DNA of 64,000 nucleotides from Antricoccus suffuscus (GCF_003003235.1 NZ_PVUE01000021.1:1-64000), one strand, 5' to 3'; shown: positions 47,754 through 56,955, numbered from the stretch's first letter. Program-made: numbers and translations. The notes: generated from the letters alone by a model not told the origin.

Positions 47754-48206
47754 CTAGGAGCCGGTCGTGCTTCGCCGTTCGACGTTCGTCTTAATGTTGC
47801 CCAGGGAGATGGTCGCCTCCTCGTCGATGCGCTCGATCATCTGCTCCGTCGGAGGTTTGGGCCGTGACGGGTTTTGGATCGTGCGGGTGTACGCCGTCCG
47901 TCCGTCGGTCTCGGCGAACGTGTATTCGGCAACGATCGGGCCGATGAAGTCGGTGTTGGTGCGTGCGACCCAGCGTCGAGGCCGGTCGCAGACCTCGACG
48001 ACCCAGTCCAGCTGGACCTCGCCCTTACTCGTGTGCCACTTCTCGTGAAATGTCTCGTCCGCGACGAGCGGTCGATCCTCACTGTCGATGTGGTGCGAGG
48101 CGGCGATCCACTCCGGCCACGACTGCGGGTTGCTGACATAGTCGAAGACGGCGCCCGCGGGCGCATCGATCTCGATGCTGTGACTGCGTTCAAATGCCGA
48201 GGTCAC
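47754..48206 (-). CDS. SRPBCC-family (START-like) protein
   Basis: 150 aa with the polyketide cyclase/dehydrase-like layout: HSIEIDAPAGAVFDYVSNPQSWPEWI at the start, beta-strands in the middle, a long C-terminal helix. Binds a hydrophobic ligand by family precedent. Its ATG overlaps the AAA ATPase stop by 4 bp, so the two are co-translated. Confidence 0.86.
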   Translation of the reverse strand: MTSAFERSHSIEIDAPAGAVFDYVSNPQSWPEWIAASHHIDSEDRPLVADETFHEKWHTSKGEVQLDWVVEVCDRPRRWVARTNTDFIGPIVAEYTFAETDGRTAYTRTIQNPSRPKPPTEQMIERIDEEATISLGNIKTNVERRSTTGS

Positions 48207-50818
48207 GACTGCTCACGCTCCTTTGCGAAGTTTTCCAGCCACTCGACCTGTTCGGAGTTGAGTGATGGACGGATGTTGTTGCGGGCTCGATCGAAGTCCG
48301 CCTTGGTCACCCGCGGCGCGTCGAGGTCGCGGCGCATCGCGACCAGCGCCGCCTCGCGCACGAGCGCGGCGCAGTCGGCGCTCGAATAGTGCTCGAGCTC
48401 CTTTGCGATGGCCGTGAGGTTGACGCCGCGAGTGATCGGCGTGTTGCGGGCCGAGGCCTTGAGGATCGCTGCTCGCGCGTCGGCGTCCGGCGGCGGCACA
48501 TAGATCATCCGGTCGAGCCGGCCCGGACGCAACAGCGCGGGATCGATCAGGTCAGGCCGGTTGGTGGCACCGATGACGACGACGTTTTTCAGTGCCTCCA
48601 CACCGTCGAGCTCGGTGAGTAGGGAGGCGACGACGCGGTCCGTCGTACCGCCATCGGTGCCTTGACCGCGCGGCGGAGCGAGCGCGTCGACCTCGTCCAT
48701 GAAGATCAGCGTCGGTGACGCTTGGCGGGCTCGCCGGAACAGCTCACGTACGGCGCGTTCACTTTCGCCGACCCACTTGTTGAGTAGCTCCGCACCCTTG
48801 ACGCTCATCACGTTGGTCTGCCCGGATCCGGCGATCGCCTTGACGAGGAATGTCTTCCCGCAGCCGGGCGGTCCATAGAGCAGTACGCCGCGCGGAGGGC
48901 TGATCCCGAGCCGCTCGAAGGTCTCGGGATACTGCAGCGGCCACAGCACCGCTTCGGTGAGAGCTTCCTTCGTCTCGACCATGTCGCCGACGTCGTCGAG
49001 GGTCACGCGCGCGACTTCCAGTGACGACTCGGCCATCGCGGTCGGCCGCACGACCTCCAGCGCGCCGATCAGGTCGGTCTGGTCGATCGTCGGATTGTCC
49101 GACTCGCGCTGCCGAAGGGCGGCACGCACGGACGCCTCGCGCCGCAACGCGATCAGGTCCGCGATGACAAACCCCGGCGTACGGGCCGCTATCTCGTCAA
49201 GGTGTACGCCGCCGGCCAGTGGCACCGGGCGCATCACGGCCTCGAGGATGTCTTTGCGACCGTTCTTGTCCGGCAGCGGCACGGACAGCTGATGATCGAG
49301 TACGCCGGGGCGCAGTAGCTCGGTGGAGACCTCTTCGGGGCGGGCCGTCGTGCAGACGACGGCGACCTTGCTGGCGCCGATGGTGTGAGCGAGCAGGTCG
49401 ATGAAGATCCGTGAGAGTGGCTCCGGTTCGTCGCGTGGAGCGAGCGCCTCGACGTCCCGGATCAGCAGCATCGTGGGGGACTTGTCGGTGGCGTCCTTGA
49501 TCGCGCTGCGCAGGGCATCGGCGGCCGCGGCGGCCTCGACGGCGGCGACCGCGGGCGCGGACAGGTCGACCACGCCGGCGCCGACGGACGCGGCGACCGA
49601 TTGCGCCAGGGTGCTTTTGCCGACCCCGGGTGGCCCGCTGATTAGTACGCCGAGCTGCGCCGTGCTGCCGAGTCGATCGAGCACCTCGGTGTGATGGAAG
49701 CCGAGGTCCAGCCACTCGTAGAGCGAGTGGGACTGTTCCTTTACTCCGGGCAGGTCGGCAATAGTCGGTATGGCCGTCGCGACGGTCCCGGTGTCGGCGT
49801 CATCGGCGACTGTATCGCGCTTGTCCACGTCACTCTGTTCGGCGGTTTGGGCCGGTTTGGCTGCCGGCTTTGCCTTTGTCGCCGACCCGGTTGCGGCCGC
49901 ACCTGACTTCGTGTCAGAGGCCGCGGGCTTTTCCGCGACGACTGCCGGACCCGCGGACGGAGCAGGTGTCGTCGCAGGCAGTGGTACCGCTGCAGGCGGG
50001 GACGGGAGAGGTGAAGACGGTGGCGGCGATGGCGCTGCGGTCACGGTGTATAGCGGGTTGGGCTGCGGCGTCACTTGGCGCACGGACGAATGGTTCGTCG
50101 ATGCCCGGCTAGGCTTCTCTGGCGCCCAGCCCGGTGCGCTGCCACCCCCGCGCCACGACACCGTCGTACCGGCTGTGACCAGTGCGGGGCCCGCAGCATC
50201 GACGCTGGTGACCGTGAGCAGCGTGGTTGTCCACTGCATGCCCATCAGCGCCCGCAACTGCCGCCGCGTGCTGTCGAGGTCACTCTGATCGACCAGTCCA
50301 CCGAGCGAGTTTTCCTGCGGGAGGAGAGATATGTTGTCGCCCGTGGCCACCATCTTGCCTAGCAACGCGCGGCGCAGCATGTCGGGGCTGACGATCCGCG
50401 AAATGTTGGCATCGCCGGCCACCTCGACGGTGCGCGCCTCGGTGAGGTCGATCTTGGCGACCTGGACCGCCGTACCGTCTGCGATCCCGATGTTGCCGAG
50501 TGTGAGGTCGTCGGCCAGCAGAATCCCCGGTGGCACGTCGTTGCCGCCGTCGGCGACGATTGCGCCGGTCGTACGTCGGCCGCCCAGTAGCACCGGGTCC
50601 CACGGTGCCAGGTCGAGCGCCGCAAGCACGTCCTGGTGCATGCGTACGACGCCGCGCCGTGCATCAAGCACGGCGGCGGTCAGGCGAGCAGTGAGCGTAA
50701 GTCCGGTTTCCGACACGTGGTCGAGCGTAGTCGGAACGGGCGCGGCAGCGCCGCCGACCGCAGTCAACTGCTCAGCGGCACGCCTGAGACGTGGTGCCGT
50801 GGAACTTCTGCCGGCCAT
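48203..50818 (-). CDS. CDC48-like double AAA+ ATPase
   Basis: 871 aa, counterpart of mycobacterial Rv0435c. N-domain of double-psi-barrel type (about 30-225), Pro/Ala/Ser-rich linker (about 228-340), D1 (about 350-590), D2 (about 610-850). D2 is complete: GPPGCGKTF (about 650), IFMDEVDALAP (about 705), RPGRLDR (about 766). D1 has Walker A GPPGVGKST (about 393), but Walker B reads LLIRDVEALAP (DE replaced by RD) and the arginine-finger site RPGVLDH lacks the second Arg. D1 probably binds but does not hydrolyse ATP. Hexameric unfoldase role inferred. Confidence 0.92.
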   Translation of the reverse strand: MAGRSSTAPRLRRAAEQLTAVGGAAAPVPTTLDHVSETGLTLTARLTAAVLDARRGVVRMHQDVLAALDLAPWDPVLLGGRRTTGAIVADGGNDVPPGILLADDLTLGNIGIADGTAVQVAKIDLTEARTVEVAGDANISRIVSPDMLRRALLGKMVATGDNISLLPQENSLGGLVDQSDLDSTRRQLRALMGMQWTTTLLTVTSVDAAGPALVTAGTTVSWRGGGSAPGWAPEKPSRASTNHSSVRQVTPQPNPLYTVTAAPSPPPSSPLPSPPAAVPLPATTPAPSAGPAVVAEKPAASDTKSGAAATGSATKAKPAAKPAQTAEQSDVDKRDTVADDADTGTVATAIPTIADLPGVKEQSHSLYEWLDLGFHHTEVLDRLGSTAQLGVLISGPPGVGKSTLAQSVAASVGAGVVDLSAPAVAAVEAAAAADALRSAIKDATDKSPTMLLIRDVEALAPRDEPEPLSRIFIDLLAHTIGASKVAVVCTTARPEEVSTELLRPGVLDHQLSVPLPDKNGRKDILEAVMRPVPLAGGVHLDEIAARTPGFVIADLIALRREASVRAALRQRESDNPTIDQTDLIGALEVVRPTAMAESSLEVARVTLDDVGDMVETKEALTEAVLWPLQYPETFERLGISPPRGVLLYGPPGCGKTFLVKAIAGSGQTNVMSVKGAELLNKWVGESERAVRELFRRARQASPTLIFMDEVDALAPPRGQGTDGGTTDRVVASLLTELDGVEALKNVVVIGATNRPDLIDPALLRPGRLDRMIYVPPPDADARAAILKASARNTPITRGVNLTAIAKELEHYSSADCAALVREAALVAMRRDLDAPRVTKADFDRARNNIRPSLNSEQVEWLENFAKEREQS

Positions 50819-50874: not shown

Positions 50875-53742
50875 GTGCGCGTGAGAAGCCTGTCCAGGAC
50901 GAGTCGCATCGTCATTACGGTGCTTGCCGTGATTGTTGTGGCGGGTGGACTCGTGTCATGGCGGCTCATCAGCAACGCCAATCCCGGATACCGCACGGTC
51001 AACTCGATGTTCGGCAGCAACACCTCACCTTCCGTCTTACTCGACACGACGATGTACATCCCCGACAACGCGACGGCAGCGCACCCCGCACCCGCGGTGA
51101 TCGTCGCGCACGGCTTCGGCGGTGACAAGGAGTCCGTGGCCGCCGACGCCAAAGACCTTGCCGCCCGCGGGTACGTCGTGCTCGCATACAGCGCGCGCGG
51201 ATTCGGAAAGAGCGACGGGCAGATCTCGCTCAACGCGCCGGACGCCGAGGTCGCGGACGCGAAGAACCTCATCACGATGCTCGCGCAGCAACCGGAGGTG
51301 CAGAAGGACGGGCCCAACGACCCGAGGGTCGGGATCGTCGGCGCGTCGTACGGCGGCGCGCTCGCGTTGATGACCGCCGGACTGGATGATCGGGTCGACG
51401 CGATCGTCCCGGAGATCACCTGGAACCGGCTGTCACGAGTCTTCTTCCCGAATGGCTCGGGGGTGCTGCCGCATAACGCATTGGCTCCCGCCGCGGTTGG
51501 ACCGGGCGCGCAGGATGTCGCCCCTGGGGTGTTCAAGCGTGAGTGGGCCGGGATCTTCTTCGGGCTGGGAAAGGGCAACGGCATTCCCTCACTTTTGCCG
51601 TCGGCTACCAGCGGCGATTCCAGTGATTCGAGCGGGTCGGGTGGCTCCGGCGCGGCCAGCAAGCCGGGGGCCTCGGATGGCACATTTCCGCTCAACCCCG
51701 CGCTCGAACCGCAGTTGGTGTGCGGGAAGTTCAGCGCGCAGATCTGTCAGGTCTATACCGAGGCGGCGTCGACCGGCACGCTCAGCGCCGCGTCGGTGGC
51801 CGTGCTCGACAAGTCCTCGCCGTACAGCGTCGCGGACAAGATCAAGGCGCCGACCTTCCTGATCCAAGGCCAGAACGACTCGCTGTTCCCACTCAGCGAG
51901 GCGGACGAGACCGCCCGTCAGATCGCGCTGAACGGCACCGACGTCAAGGTCTACTGGACCGCCGGCGGCCACGATGCGGGCGGTGTGGGCGCGACCGACG
52001 ACGAGACCAAGCAGATCCGCGGCGAGGTCGCGGGCTGGTTCGATCACTACCTGAAGAAGACCGGCCCGAAGCCGTCCCTCGACTTCGCCTTCGACCAGGA
52101 GACCGGGTTGTCGGTGCGAGGCGGGCGGCCGGCGATTCGAGTCGAACGCGCCCCGTCGTACCCCGGCGTCCACGACCTCGATGTCGCCACCAAGAGCCTG
52201 ACGGTGTCGGGGACGCCGCAGCTGGCCGTGGCGCCCGCCGGCGGCGTACCGTCGTCGATCTCTACGCTGCCTGGGATCGGCAATTTCGGTCTCGCCTACG
52301 ACCCTCCGGGCCAGGCGGCCGTTTTCACGTCCAAGAAACTGACCACCGCGATGAGTATCGTCGGCAGCTCGTCGATCAAGATCCACGTGTCCGGCGTACC
52401 CGAGGGCGCCGTACTGTTCGCGAAGCTTTACGACGTGCCCGACGGCGGTACGCCGAGCCTGCCCGGGGGCAGCGTGGCGCCGGTCGTCGTACCGCCATCC
52501 GCGCCAGGCGCCGGGGTCGATGTCGACGTTGTGCTGCCGGCCGTTGCGCACCAGTTCGAAACTGGCCACCGACTGCTGGTCGCATTCGCCACCACGGATC
52601 GCTCATACCAAAGCGAACCGCAGCAGAAGGTCATCGGTATCAGCCTTGCCGGCGGGTCGGGTGGCCTCACCTACGCGACGGTCAGCGCGACTCCGGACGC
52701 GGCGCCCGTATCGGATTGGCTCATTCTCCTCGCCATCGTCGTCGGAGCCGGCGTACTCGCGGCGCTCGTGTCGCTGCTATGGCGGCGCCGGCGGCTGCGC
52801 AAGGAGTACGTCGCCTTCGACACGCAGCTGGCCGATGTGCCGCTCGTCGCCGACGGTCTGCGCAAGGCATACAAGGACGGCTTTGTCGCGGTACGCTCGG
52901 TGAATTTCCGCGTCGAGCGGGGCCAGGTGGTCGGGCTGCTCGGACCGAATGGCGCCGGCAAGACGACGGCGCTGCGCATGCTGATGGGCCTGATCCGGCC
53001 GACCGCGGGAGAGCTGCGCGTCTTCGGTCACCACATCAGCCCCGGCAGCCCCGTATTGAGCCGGTTGGGCTGCTTCGTCGAGGGCGTCGGGTTCCTGCAG
53101 CACCTCAACGGCCGGGACAATATCGAGCTGTTCTGGGCCGCAACCGGACGGCCGCTCGAAGACGCCCGCCTCGACGAGGTGCTGGAAATCGCTGGGCTCG
53201 GTGACGCGATCGACCGCAAGGTCAAGACCTACAGCCAAGGGATGCGGCAGCGGCTGGCGATCGCGCAGGCGATGCTCGGCCTGCCGGACCTGCTCGTGCT
53301 TGACGAGCCGACTAACGGGCTCGATCCGCCGCAGATTGCCGAGATGCGCGCCGTACTGCGCTCCTATGCCCGCGACGGCCGGTCGGTGCTCATCTCCAGT
53401 CACCAGCTAGCCGAGGTCGAGCAGACGTGCTCGCACATTGTCGTGATCAACAAGGGCGAGGTTATCGCGTCGGGTTCGGTGGCCGAGGTCGTCGGTGTCG
53501 GTGCCGAGCTCACTGTCGGCGTGGACGACCCCGCGATTGCCGCGCGCCTGATTGACCGGCTCGACGGCGTGATCGTCATCGACCAGTCGGCGACCGAGAT
53601 CGGCGTCGAGATCACCGACGAACACGTACACGCCGCCGACATAGTGGCGGCCCTCGTAACGGCCGGCGTACGGGTCGACAGCGCTGTTCCACGGAGGCAT
53701 CTCGAGGACGCCTTCCTGGCATTGGTGGGTGAGGTGAAATGA
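50875..53742 (+). CDS. Membrane-anchored hydrolase (S15/CocE type) fused to ABC transporter ATPase
   Basis: 955 aa. N-terminal anchor (about 12-32); extracytoplasmic alpha/beta hydrolase (about 60-410) with nucleophile GASYGG (about 156), Asp in GQNDSLFP (about 336) and His in GGHDAGG (about 363), plus an inserted G/S-rich loop (about 240-260); a beta-rich X-Pro peptidase C-terminal-like domain (about 430-600); second transmembrane helix (about 614-636); cytosolic ABC domain with GPNGAGKTT (about 692), YSQGMRQR (about 786) and LLVLDEP (about 806). Start could be GTG 50875 or 50881. Overlaps the permease by 4 bp. One polypeptide thus couples an exported hydrolase to the exporter motor. Confidence 0.92.
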   Translation: MRVRSLSRTSRIVITVLAVIVVAGGLVSWRLISNANPGYRTVNSMFGSNTSPSVLLDTTMYIPDNATAAHPAPAVIVAHGFGGDKESVAADAKDLAARGYVVLAYSARGFGKSDGQISLNAPDAEVADAKNLITMLAQQPEVQKDGPNDPRVGIVGASYGGALALMTAGLDDRVDAIVPEITWNRLSRVFFPNGSGVLPHNALAPAAVGPGAQDVAPGVFKREWAGIFFGLGKGNGIPSLLPSATSGDSSDSSGSGGSGAASKPGASDGTFPLNPALEPQLVCGKFSAQICQVYTEAASTGTLSAASVAVLDKSSPYSVADKIKAPTFLIQGQNDSLFPLSEADETARQIALNGTDVKVYWTAGGHDAGGVGATDDETKQIRGEVAGWFDHYLKKTGPKPSLDFAFDQETGLSVRGGRPAIRVERAPSYPGVHDLDVATKSLTVSGTPQLAVAPAGGVPSSISTLPGIGNFGLAYDPPGQAAVFTSKKLTTAMSIVGSSSIKIHVSGVPEGAVLFAKLYDVPDGGTPSLPGGSVAPVVVPPSAPGAGVDVDVVLPAVAHQFETGHRLLVAFATTDRSYQSEPQQKVIGISLAGGSGGLTYATVSATPDAAPVSDWLILLAIVVGAGVLAALVSLLWRRRRLRKEYVAFDTQLADVPLVADGLRKAYKDGFVAVRSVNFRVERGQVVGLLGPNGAGKTTALRMLMGLIRPTAGELRVFGHHISPGSPVLSRLGCFVEGVGFLQHLNGRDNIELFWAATGRPLEDARLDEVLEIAGLGDAIDRKVKTYSQGMRQRLAIAQAMLGLPDLLVLDEPTNGLDPPQIAEMRAVLRSYARDGRSVLISSHQLAEVEQTCSHIVVINKGEVIASGSVAEVVGVGAELTVGVDDPAIAARLIDRLDGVIVIDQSATEIGVEITDEHVHAADIVAALVTAGVRVDSAVPRRHLEDAFLALVGEVK

Positions 53743-54626
53743 CCGAGTCACAGGCCGCAGGACGCGACGTAGCGGACCGCAGAGGGGCGGCGCCGGGTTA
53801 CGCGCCCGGGCACACGCTCGGCTTCTGGATTGAGGTACGCCGCCAGCTGGGGCGCCGACGTACTCTCGGCGTCTTTGCCTTCATGGCGTTGCTTCCGCTG
53901 ATCTTGATCCTGGCCTTCGCGATCGGCAATCCGGCCGACCTCGGCAGGTCCAGCACGGTCAATCTGGTCGACGTCGCGACCACCGGCGCGCTCAACTTCA
54001 TGCTCTTTATTTTTTTCGTGACGACCGGGTTCTTCCTCGTCATCGTCTTCGCGCTGTTCTTCGGAGACACGGTTGCGAGCGAGGCAGGGTGGGGGAGTCT
54101 GCGCTATCTGCTGGCCATCCCGGTGCCCCGAGGCCGCCTGTTGATGCGCAAACTGCTCGTCGCGTTGTTCTTGTCGTTGGCGGCACTCGCGGTGTTGATG
54201 GCAGTCTCGCTGGTCGCCGGGTGGATCTTTTACGGCTGGCATCCGGTTGGTACGCCGGTCGGCATCGAACTCTCGCCCGGGGCAGCGTCGTGGCGGATCC
54301 TGCTGATCGCGGCGTACATCGCGGTCAACATGCTGATGGTCGGCGCGCTGGCGTTCTACCTGTCGGTGCGCACCGACGCTCCGCTCGCCGCGGTCGGCGG
54401 CACCGTGTTCATCGTGATTGTCTCGTCGATCCTCGGGCAGGTCGATGCGCTCGGCGACCTGCGCAACTGGCTGCCAACGCAGTACAACTTCGCCTGGGTG
54501 GGCATGCTCGGCGTACCCCCGGACACGAGTCAGATGATCCGCGGCGTGTCCTTTGCCCTGGCCTACGCCGCGATCTTGCTCGCGCTTGCCTTCCGGCATT
54601 TCCACAAGAAGGACGTCACGTCGTAA
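53739..54626 (+). CDS. ABC-2 type transporter permease
   Basis: 295 aa, six predicted transmembrane helices, with the EAGWGSLRYLLAIPVPRGRLLMRK segment after helix 2 typical of ABC-2 exporters. Cytosolic N-terminus of about 45 residues. ATGA overlap with the hydrolase-ABC fusion identifies it as that protein's membrane partner; two copies would complete a transporter. Substrate unknown, perhaps peptide or lipid related to the hydrolase. Confidence 0.9.
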   Translation: MTESQAAGRDVADRRGAAPGYAPGHTLGFWIEVRRQLGRRRTLGVFAFMALLPLILILAFAIGNPADLGRSSTVNLVDVATTGALNFMLFIFFVTTGFFLVIVFALFFGDTVASEAGWGSLRYLLAIPVPRGRLLMRKLLVALFLSLAALAVLMAVSLVAGWIFYGWHPVGTPVGIELSPGAASWRILLIAAYIAVNMLMVGALAFYLSVRTDAPLAAVGGTVFIVIVSSILGQVDALGDLRNWLPTQYNFAWVGMLGVPPDTSQMIRGVSFALAYAAILLALAFRHFHKKDVTS

Positions 54627-54676: not shown

Positions 54677-56380
54677 TTAAGCGAGACCCTCGGCGCGCGC
54701 TTCCTTCATGCGATCGGCCATCGCGCTGGAGTTACGCATCGGCAGTTGCTTGACCAACAGCGCAAACAGGAAGCCGACAATCATGACCGGGATCGCGAAG
54801 TGGTACACCGCTTGCATCGCTTCGACGAACGCGTCGAGGATGCCGTCCTTCAGCCCCGGGGAAAGGTGACCGACGCTGTTGATCGCGTCCGTGCTCGCCA
54901 GCAGCTTCTGTAGCTCGTTTGCGGTCACGTCTGGCATCGCGAGAAGCTGTTTGGCGCCCTCGACTTGGGCCTGGCTCACGCCAGGCGGCAGTTGACCGGA
55001 GGCGGCAGCCTGAACCAGCTGGTGTGCCTGTGCGATCTTCTGCTCGATGCCGGGTTTGGCCGCTGCAAGCGGAGCGGCTACCGATGTCACGAACGTGCCG
55101 TTGAGGATGGACCCGAAGATTGCGACGCCCATCGTGCCGCCCAGCTGCCGCATAAACGTCCCGGTCGACGTGACGACGGCGAGGTCCCGCCCGGTGACCG
55201 CGTTCTGAGCGGCCAGCACCAGGTTCTGCATGCAGCAGCCGAGCCCGAGGCCGAGGACGAGCATGTAGAGACTGAACACCCACATCGACGTACCGCGCTC
55301 GACCGTGCTGAACAAGAACATTGCCAGGACCAAGATCGCGGTGCCGCCGACGATGAACATCTTGTACTTGCCGAGCTTGGTGATCAGGTTGCCCGAGCCG
55401 ATCGACGCCGACATGATTCCAACGACCATCGGGATGATCGCGAGGCCGGCTTCGGTCGCGCTGAGCCCCTTCTCGATCTGCAGGTACTGCGAGACGTAGA
55501 TGATCGCGCCGAACATGCCGAAACCGATCACGACGCCGACGATCGTCGTGGTCGTGACTACCTTGTTCTGGAAGATCCGCAGCGGCAAAATAGGATCGTC
55601 GACGCGGAACTCCCACCAGATAAAGATGGCCGTAAGGGCTGCGGCGACGACGAAGTAGGTGATGATCGAGGTCGAACCCCACCCGTCGCTGTTGCCGAAC
55701 TCGAGCGCAAGCAGCAAGCTCGATACCGCGCCCACGAGCAGGGCAGCGCCGAAGTAGTCGATCTTGACCTTCTGGTGGTGATGCGGCAAATGCAGGTGCT
55801 TGACGACGAGGTAGATCGCGACGAGCCCGACGGGGATGTTGACCCAGAAACACCAGCGCCACGACACCGAGTCGGTGAGAAACCCGCCAAGCAGCGGGCC
55901 CACCACAGACGAGAGGCCAAAGACCGCGCCGAAATAGCCCTGGTATTTGCCGCGCTGCCGTGGCGGCACGATGTCGGAGATGATGATGAATGCTAGCGGC
56001 ATGAGACCACCCGCGCCGAGGCCCTGAACGCCGCGGAAGATGATCAGCTGCGTCATGTTCTGGCTGAACGCCGCCAGCACCGAGCCGACCAAGAAGACGC
56101 CGATGCTGAACAAGAAGACCGGGCGCCGACCGAAGATGTCCGAGACCTTGCCGTACAGCGGAGTCGACGCGGTCGCGAGCAGCATGTACGCCGTCACGAC
56201 CCACGGGATCGCCTCAAACGCCTTGAAGTCGCCCGCGATGGTCTTCAGCGCGGTAGAGACAATGGTCTGGTCGAGCGCGGCGAGAAACATGCCGGCCAGC
56301 AGGCCGAACAGGATCGCCATGATCTGCTTGTGCGAGAACTCGCCGGATTCTTCGACGGTCGCGTCAGGTGCGGTGGTCAC
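54677..56380 (-). CDS. MFS drug transporter, DHA2 (EmrB/QacA) family
   Basis: 567 aa with 14 predicted transmembrane helices. Motif ALDQTIVSTALKTIAGDF (helix 1), GKVSDIFGRRPVF (motif A), RGVQGLGAGGLMPLAF (motif B), GPLLGGFLTD (motif C). Proton-driven multidrug efflux. GTG 56380 is chosen from TGGAG 6-7 nt upstream; an earlier in-frame start at 56434 has none. A loop near the C-terminus (about 430-525) is long. Follows marR on the same strand, the usual efflux/repressor arrangement. Confidence 0.92.
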   Translation of the reverse strand: MTTAPDATVEESGEFSHKQIMAILFGLLAGMFLAALDQTIVSTALKTIAGDFKAFEAIPWVVTAYMLLATASTPLYGKVSDIFGRRPVFLFSIGVFLVGSVLAAFSQNMTQLIIFRGVQGLGAGGLMPLAFIIISDIVPPRQRGKYQGYFGAVFGLSSVVGPLLGGFLTDSVSWRWCFWVNIPVGLVAIYLVVKHLHLPHHHQKVKIDYFGAALLVGAVSSLLLALEFGNSDGWGSTSIITYFVVAAALTAIFIWWEFRVDDPILPLRIFQNKVVTTTTIVGVVIGFGMFGAIIYVSQYLQIEKGLSATEAGLAIIPMVVGIMSASIGSGNLITKLGKYKMFIVGGTAILVLAMFLFSTVERGTSMWVFSLYMLVLGLGLGCCMQNLVLAAQNAVTGRDLAVVTSTGTFMRQLGGTMGVAIFGSILNGTFVTSVAAPLAAAKPGIEQKIAQAHQLVQAAASGQLPPGVSQAQVEGAKQLLAMPDVTANELQKLLASTDAINSVGHLSPGLKDGILDAFVEAMQAVYHFAIPVMIVGFLFALLVKQLPMRNSSAMADRMKEARAEGLA

Positions 56381-56469
56381 GAGTGCTCCATGTGAAATGT
56401 AAAGACAGTGGTCGGGTCGGGAGGTGCCTCTCACGCGACGCTCTGAGGACGTGCGTAAAGCGCCTTCGC

Positions 56470-56955
56470 TTAGGTCGTCTTATGCGGTACGGCGTGCATA
56501 TGCCGGGCAGCGGTGGTCTGTAGGTCCGCAGCGAGCCGGCCGAGGATGGCCCGCAACTCGCGGCGATCTTCCTCGTTCCAGCCGCTGATCGCCGATCCCA
56601 GCTCCTCGCGCCGGACGTGCTCTGCGTGTGCGAGCATGGCGCTCCCTTTGGCGCTGAGCCGCATGAGATGCGCTCGTCCGTCGGCGGGGTCTGGGCTGCG
56701 TTCGACGAGGTCGTCCTCTTCGAGTTTCTTGATGTGCCGGCTGATGGTCGAGATGTCGAGCCCGCAGAACTCGGCCACGGACGACGGTCGTGACTTGTCA
56801 AAGTGCCGAATGGAGGTGAGCACCATTAGCGCTCCCTTATCCAAGGCCATGCTCTCGAACCCCTTGTGCACCGCGCGTACGACGCTCAGAAGACTGCGCA
56901 CGATGTCGTCTAGAGCATCAGTGTCTTCGGGGTCGGGGTGGGTTGCTTGTGTCAC
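56470..56955 (-). CDS. MarR-family transcriptional regulator
   Basis: 161 aa winged-helix repressor: PSSVAEFCGLDISTISRHIKKLEEDDLVER (recognition helix) and DPADGRAHLMRLSAKG (wing). Likely represses itself and the MFS pump until a drug binds. The GTG start is 7 nt after CATACT and has no Shine-Dalgarno, so the message is probably leaderless. A palindrome overlaps its -35 box. Confidence 0.93.
   Translation of the reverse strand: MTQATHPDPEDTDALDDIVRSLLSVVRAVHKGFESMALDKGALMVLTSIRHFDKSRPSSVAEFCGLDISTISRHIKKLEEDDLVERSPDPADGRAHLMRLSAKGSAMLAHAEHVRREELGSAISGWNEEDRRELRAILGRLAADLQTTAARHMHAVPHKTT

Follow-up and report, generated by a model that had tools for sequence, protein, structure and literature searches.

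Organization of the locus

Analysis of a 64,000-nucleotide stretch of DNA from Antricoccus suffuscus (GCF_003003235.1 NZ_PVUE01000021.1:1-64000, hereafter the window) revealed a gene (50875-53742) encoding a hydrolase, a transmembrane (TM) helix and an ATP-binding cassette (ABC) ATPase in a single chain of 955 amino acids (aa), followed by the gene of an ABC-2 type permease; both genes lie on the plus strand. The frame is open from a GTG start, with an alternative in-frame GTG two codons further on at 50881. Within this chain, Pfam identifies Peptidase_S15 (aa 54-201), PepX_C (479-584) and ABC_tran (674-814), all above gathering, and hydropathy indicates exactly two TM segments (9-27 and 616-634). 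An AlphaFold2 model built from 25 full-length homologues has a mean predicted local distance difference test score (pLDDT) of 81.9 and gives the same order, with a helix at 7-33, the alpha/beta hydrolase core, a beta-sandwich at 404-602, a second helix at 614-640 and the nucleotide-binding domain (NBD) at 657-951. The fused hydrolase-TM-ABC chain with its own permease, as claimed in a preliminary description made from the sequence of the window, is confirmed. Only one copy of the fused gene is present in this genome. Among the Foldseek matches listed against the PDB, no solved chain covers both the hydrolase half and the NBD.

The N-terminal TM helix, or signal anchor (50893-50973; aa ~7-33), is preceded by an arginine-rich N-terminus, while the second TM helix (52714-52794; aa ~614-640) has an RRRR cluster at its inner end. 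Both are found by hydropathy and in the model, in agreement with the membrane tether and second helix described earlier. The mean net charge in 77 homologues changes from +4.0 before to -1.2 after the first helix, and from -0.1 before to +1.9 after the second. Based on this positive-inside pattern and the predicted structure, the topology with the hydrolase outside and the ATPase inside is a well-supported prediction, as the preliminary description had proposed. The stretch between the second helix and the NBD (~636-646) is of low confidence in the model.

The hydrolase, the ATPase and the permease

The alpha/beta hydrolase domain of the S15/CocE type (50989-52059; aa ~39-395) was delimited by Pfam, invariant columns and Foldseek, with a Peptidase_S15 score of 75.5 bits (gathering 23 bits, E 6.9e-21). 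It is followed by a PepX_C-like beta-sandwich (52084-52680; aa ~404-602), visible as strands in the model and matching PF08530 with 36.0 bits (gathering 22.5 bits, E 8.9e-9). Across 25 diverse members from more than one class of the phylum, Peptidase_S15 is matched in 25/25 and PepX_C in 22/25. The catalytic triad consists of Ser158, within GASYGG (a GxSxGG context), Asp335 and His366, and the oxyanion segment of H79-G80-F81-G82, i.e. HG(F)G. All three triad residues, described before as intact, are invariant in these members together with H79, G80, G82, C283 and C291; the two cysteines would fit an exported domain. An insert at aa ~196-280 is poorly ordered in the model (stretches 196-214 and 231-280).

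Searched with Foldseek against the PDB, the hydrolase half has a CocE-like two-domain fold, with PaL lipase (1.9e-29), CocE (9.3e-24), AEH (2.9e-21) and PepX (1.7e-19) as matches. The earlier label S15/CocE-like thus holds for the Pfam families and the fold, with one adjustment: among solved enzymes, those nearest to the hydrolase in sequence are the esterases/lipases MHETase and PaL lipase and not X-Pro peptidases. One member from another class of the phylum (L161:4769-8134, the same gene as L045, in one genome) has no GxSxGG motif, the remainder being alignable; judged from its sequence, this hydrolase is possibly non-canonical or inactive.

The ABC ATPase domain (52843-53727; aa ~657-951), delimited by ABC_tran (E 1.7e-29, above gathering), motif alignment and the model, has the complete NBD motif set of an ABC-2 type exporter (Walker A/B, signature, D-loop, H-loop). 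These are the Walker A GPNGAGKT (690-697), the signature YSQGM (786-790), the Walker B/D-loop LLVLDEPTNGLD (806-817) and H843 of the H-loop. The motifs GPNGAGKT, YSxGM, LDEPT and SSH are mostly invariant among the 25 members. At the Q-loop position, E736 is invariant in the motif alignment; we take such a glutamate to be typical of LanF/BcrA ATPases, for which a literature search gave no support. By structure, NosF and ABCA ATPases are the best PDB matches of the NBD (Foldseek), and by sequence it resembles the NCBIfam models for DrrA (201.1 bits, cut-off 312.45) and lantibiotic protection (LanF; 178.4 bits, cut-off 309.75), scores that place it in neither subfamily. An anti-phage role was considered and rejected, as the PADLOC matches are confined to the generic ATPase part.

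The permease gene (53739-54626) is open and encodes 295 aa; its start overlaps the stop of the fused gene as ATGA, the coupling noted in the preliminary description. ABC2_membrane_2 (PF12679) spans the protein with 34.4 bits, above the gathering score of 27.2, six TM segments are found by hydropathy, and the model reaches a pLDDT of 87. Its fold is closest to NosY, PmtD, KpsM and TarG (Foldseek), with E-values just above 1e-3 and none below. These families are known for export or for service to an extracytoplasmic partner. The permease has no large extracellular domain and is not FtsX-like in the manner of FtsEX-type activators, and no FtsX/MacB permease is present among the 50 Foldseek matches listed. 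It is the sole homologue of its kind in the genome of the window.

Distribution and conservation of the fusion

A set of 58 homologue loci came from genomes of the same family, order or phylum; the fusion is present in 50, sequence ends interrupt 2, and the other 6 contain remote unfused homologues. A scan of 84,980 species returned at least 587 relatives; of the best 80 named loci, all actinobacterial, 77 are fused. Two loci are cut by contig ends, one before the ATPase (L079) and one within it, with the ATPase start visible (L098), and the last of the 80 is L125, a hydrolase with a TM helix but no ABC part. The named loci with the fusion include Geodermatophilus, Blastococcus, Lentzea, Amycolatopsis, Pseudonocardia and Rhodococcus, as well as Streptomyces, Kitasatospora, Nonomuraea, Actinoplanes and an Acidimicrobiales metagenome-assembled genome (MAG). 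The active site, the ATPase motifs and the permease are kept in many culturable actinomycetes, including relatives of the genera Streptomyces and Rhodococcus. Altogether, the search for this domain order in other genomes that had been suggested recovered the whole architecture in at least 125 independently fetched loci, which puts it far beyond chance.

The permease accompanies the fusion closely. In 74 of the 76 loci with enough sequence, the next open reading frame (ORF) is a protein of 240-345 aa close behind the stop of the fused gene, and 68 of these 74 are homologous to the permease of the window; several of the others are wrong-frame picks at loci where the permease is actually present. 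A permease-profile search in 61 relatives, with open frames counted by hand, gave a bimodal result: 46 strong matches (E 1e-97 to 1e-135) and weaker paralogues elsewhere. Each strong match directly adjoins a hydrolase match, 45 of them with an open frame of at least 840 aa, which puts the fusion in about 45 of these 61 relatives.

In the hydrolase tree, 41 fused rows lie on one side of a branch with support 88, and in the ATPase tree 33 fused rows lie on one side of a branch with support 100, so that the fused proteins appear in both trees as one clade with one apparent origin. Frequent split forms had been named as a finding that would make the fusion incidental. No split hydrolase/ABC pair was found, either in the surroundings of the unfused homologues or when sought via the permease, and no ABC ATPase or permease gene adjoins the unfused hydrolase homologues. 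As far as the compared sequences indicate, the fusion is not incidental and is conserved across actinobacteria. A conserved wider neighbourhood was rejected, since only lineage-specific genes are shared, e.g. TerC-like, threonine-synthase-like or UvrB-like ones recognised by eye.

A few relatives deviate from the common form. In a Geodermatophilaceae MAG (L125:151-2202), the hydrolase, PepX_C and the second TM helix are kept with no ABC domain, and a downstream gene of opposite orientation looks Wzz/BY-kinase-like by eye. A Tsukamurella plasmid carries a member of 791 aa (L167:7971-10346), overlapped by an 888-bp permease, which is probably a shortened version of the fused protein. In family f7 of the same order, 6/6 sampled genomes (G010, G023, G035, G043, G051 and G059, part of the 61-genome sample) have no fused system and no permease match at E 1e-20, and another f7 genome, G331, carries the fused gene; the absence in the six is likely a lineage loss. 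The frames are broken in the relative G034 (L181), whose assembly is 74% complete.

Relation to known systems and possible origin of the transport half

The principle of an outside hydrolase fused to an ABC protein is already known from the ClbP-related prodrug-activating peptidases ZmaM, EdeA and PamJ, single chains of ~1,100 aa that combine an ABC half-transporter with a serine hydrolase on the outside (PMC9889268). Those proteins belong to biosynthetic clusters, mostly in Firmicutes, whereas the present family is actinobacterial and stands in no biosynthetic cluster. It also differs in its parts, having an S15/CocE alpha/beta hydrolase with PepX_C, a DrrA-like NBD without a full TM domain of its own and a separate ABC-2 permease. 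Of the ZmaM-type features, the beta-lactamase-fold peptidase (PF00144) has no Pfam match in the fused protein, and a peptide biosynthetic cluster was not found among the neighbours in the window or the recurrent neighbours. No description of an S15/CocE-ABC fusion family was found in the literature searched, which did not cover subscription papers, and the family seems to be undescribed.

PaL lipase (8YZN) and the cocaine esterase CocE share the alpha/beta hydrolase, the PepX_C sandwich and the Ser-Asp-His triad with the fused protein. However, they are free enzymes with 16-19% identity to it, whereas in the fused protein a TM anchor flanks the enzyme on either side and an ABC ATPase follows. 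DrrAB, BcrAB and LanFEG are alike in their NBD of ~300 aa with a C-terminal extension, their six-TM permease and the ATGA coupling; we know of no member of this type with a fused outside hydrolase. NosDFY is similar as an ABC-2 pair that works with an extracytoplasmic partner, NosY being the best structural match of the permease and NosF a top match of the NBD. In that system, NosD is a separate, non-hydrolase protein, and the complex functions in copper-site maturation of N2O reductase; no N2O reductase-type gene was seen here.

The closest hydrolase-free relatives of the NBD and the permease are found in the weaker permease set, as a three-gene unit of a signal- or anchor-bearing exported protein, a stand-alone ATPase of ~310-330 aa (~40% identity to the NBD of the window) and a permease. 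This uncharacterised actinobacterial operon, with a DrrA/BcrA-like ATPase, also occurs in genomes that do not have the fusion (L173:2162-5003; also L171, L172, L175-L178, L180 and L182). In 10 loci examined, the gene of the exported protein lies directly upstream of the ATPase, clearly legible in 9 and truncated in L174. This protein is weakly like RseB/MucB and LolA (best 9.1e-5, Pfam/NCBIfam); with no likeness by PDB profile, an identity as LolA was rejected and only the label LolA/RseB-like is used. N-terminal extensions of 250-400 aa on the ATPases of L171, L173 and L174 were considered as further fusions and dismissed, because their arginine-rich composition points to the upstream gene being read through in a different frame.

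Since an exported-protein gene accompanies these hydrolase-free relatives, an outside partner appears to belong to this ABC branch. The operon has its outside protein as a separate, non-hydrolase gene, whereas in the fused family a hydrolase is joined to the ATPase. The shared order of outside partner, ATPase and permease suggests that the fused family arose when a gene for a TM-anchored hydrolase became fused to the ATPase gene in an operon of this kind; whether the three-gene set is the immediate sister of the fused family is left undecided by the ATPase tree.

Proposed function and alternative explanations

The reading we slightly favour is that of a type V (ABC-2) exporter that supplies its own tethered hydrolase, of the esterase/lipase type, with an amphiphilic substrate. 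It is based on the domain order, the intact active sites, the charge-biased TM helices, the permease, the single-clade origin and the retention of the fusion; the stoichiometry, the direction of transport, the class of substrate and the coupling are inferences. ABC-2 pairs that have no solute-binding protein function in export or extraction. The combination of an ABC-2/DrrA/BcrA-like NBD with a permease resembling NosY, PmtD, KpsM and TarG, and no solute-binding protein, therefore favours export or membrane extraction. In such a two-gene system, each ATPase subunit would carry its own extracytoplasmic hydrolase, and the working unit would comprise two copies each of the fused chain and the permease. 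Through the permeases, an amphiphilic substrate, e.g. an acylated or esterified lipid, peptide or natural product, would be drawn out of the cytosol or the membrane and released outside, where the tethered CocE/lipase-type hydrolase could cut its ester or amide bond and thereby mature, release or inactivate it. The covalent link would fix one hydrolase per ATPase beside the permease exit. The link between processing outside and energy inside, as put forward in the preliminary description, would be the best reading of this anatomy, and that description is partly supported overall.

Several observations weigh against the exporter. In the subset of loci used for the neighbour-gene comparison, the permease is the only functional partner whose gene recurs in different lineages. 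The positive-inside rule is obeyed at both helices in only 57 of the 77 proteins, the L045/L161 member has no usual GxSxGG motif, and L125 has neither ATPase nor permease in the next 1.9 kb, so that the hydrolase may be able to act alone. The same L125, with its hydrolase and second TM helix but no ABC part, would suit an incidental fusion of an unrelated hydrolase and transporter by loss of a stop codon. This is disfavoured and very improbable, as no examined locus contains a split pair, the unfused homologues have no nearby ABC gene, and both the fusion and the two active sites are preserved over orders and classes. A pump for defence or self-resistance, expelling membrane-active antibiotics of neighbours like BcrAB/LanFEG while the hydrolase destroys the expelled compound, is a doubtful explanation. 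The lantibiotic-protection and DrrA models do give the NBD scores of 178 and 201 bits, and there is a precedent in LanFEG transporters, which free peptides from the membrane (PMC7038271), but both scores are far under the cut-offs (310 and 312 bits), and the glutamate at the Q-loop position is not specific, also being present in the closest stand-alone sister ATPases. Furthermore, no regulator or biosynthetic cluster recurs nearby, and the broad, roughly taxonomy-following distribution over the phylum looks like core physiology rather than a variable resistance trait.

A somewhat better, although still unlikely, alternative is control of the FtsEX type, in which the ABC module moves no substrate and ATP-driven NBD dimerisation, via the two TM helices and the permease, switches the outside hydrolase on or off, with an envelope component as its target. 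The covalent connection of NBD and hydrolase through a TM helix, in a fixed order and with one apparent origin, would suit such control, as would the NosY-like fold of the permease and the outside-partner gene that also accompanies the sister ABC systems. The NosDFY complex likewise serves a periplasmic partner. However, the six-TM ABC-2 permease without a large extracellular domain, and with no FtsX or MacB among its listed matches, speaks against it, and the low-confidence stretch behind the second TM helix argues against a stiff mechanical rod. An equally tentative extension would see an ancient one-chain envelope device of actinobacteria, evolved by hydrolase-ATPase fusion within the three-gene exporter layout. 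In this device, ATP hydrolysis on the inside would directly gate or feed the tethered lipase/esterase in an FtsEX/NosDFY-like manner, and the target of the enzyme would be a core lipid of the envelope or an acylated molecule.

If the exporter reading is true, a widespread transporter-enzyme hybrid is concealed by name-based annotation, as in the Tsukamurella L167 record, where an 'alpha/beta fold hydrolase' stands beside an 'ABC transporter permease'. After ZmaM, the family is a second, independently built example of a covalent link between an outside hydrolase and an ABC protein, here apparently serving core physiology and not antibiotic maturation.

Neighbouring genes

The neighbours of the fused gene in the window are an AAA/CDC48-like ATPase, an SRPBCC protein, a major facilitator superfamily (MFS) transporter, a MarR regulator and alpha/beta hydrolases. 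Directly upstream, in divergent orientation, a tandem AAA ATPase with a CDC48_N-like start is coupled to the SRPBCC (Polyketide_cyc2) protein (48203-50818, minus strand). Downstream, the drug-type MFS transporter and the MarR regulator (54677-56955, minus strand) are convergent with the permease.

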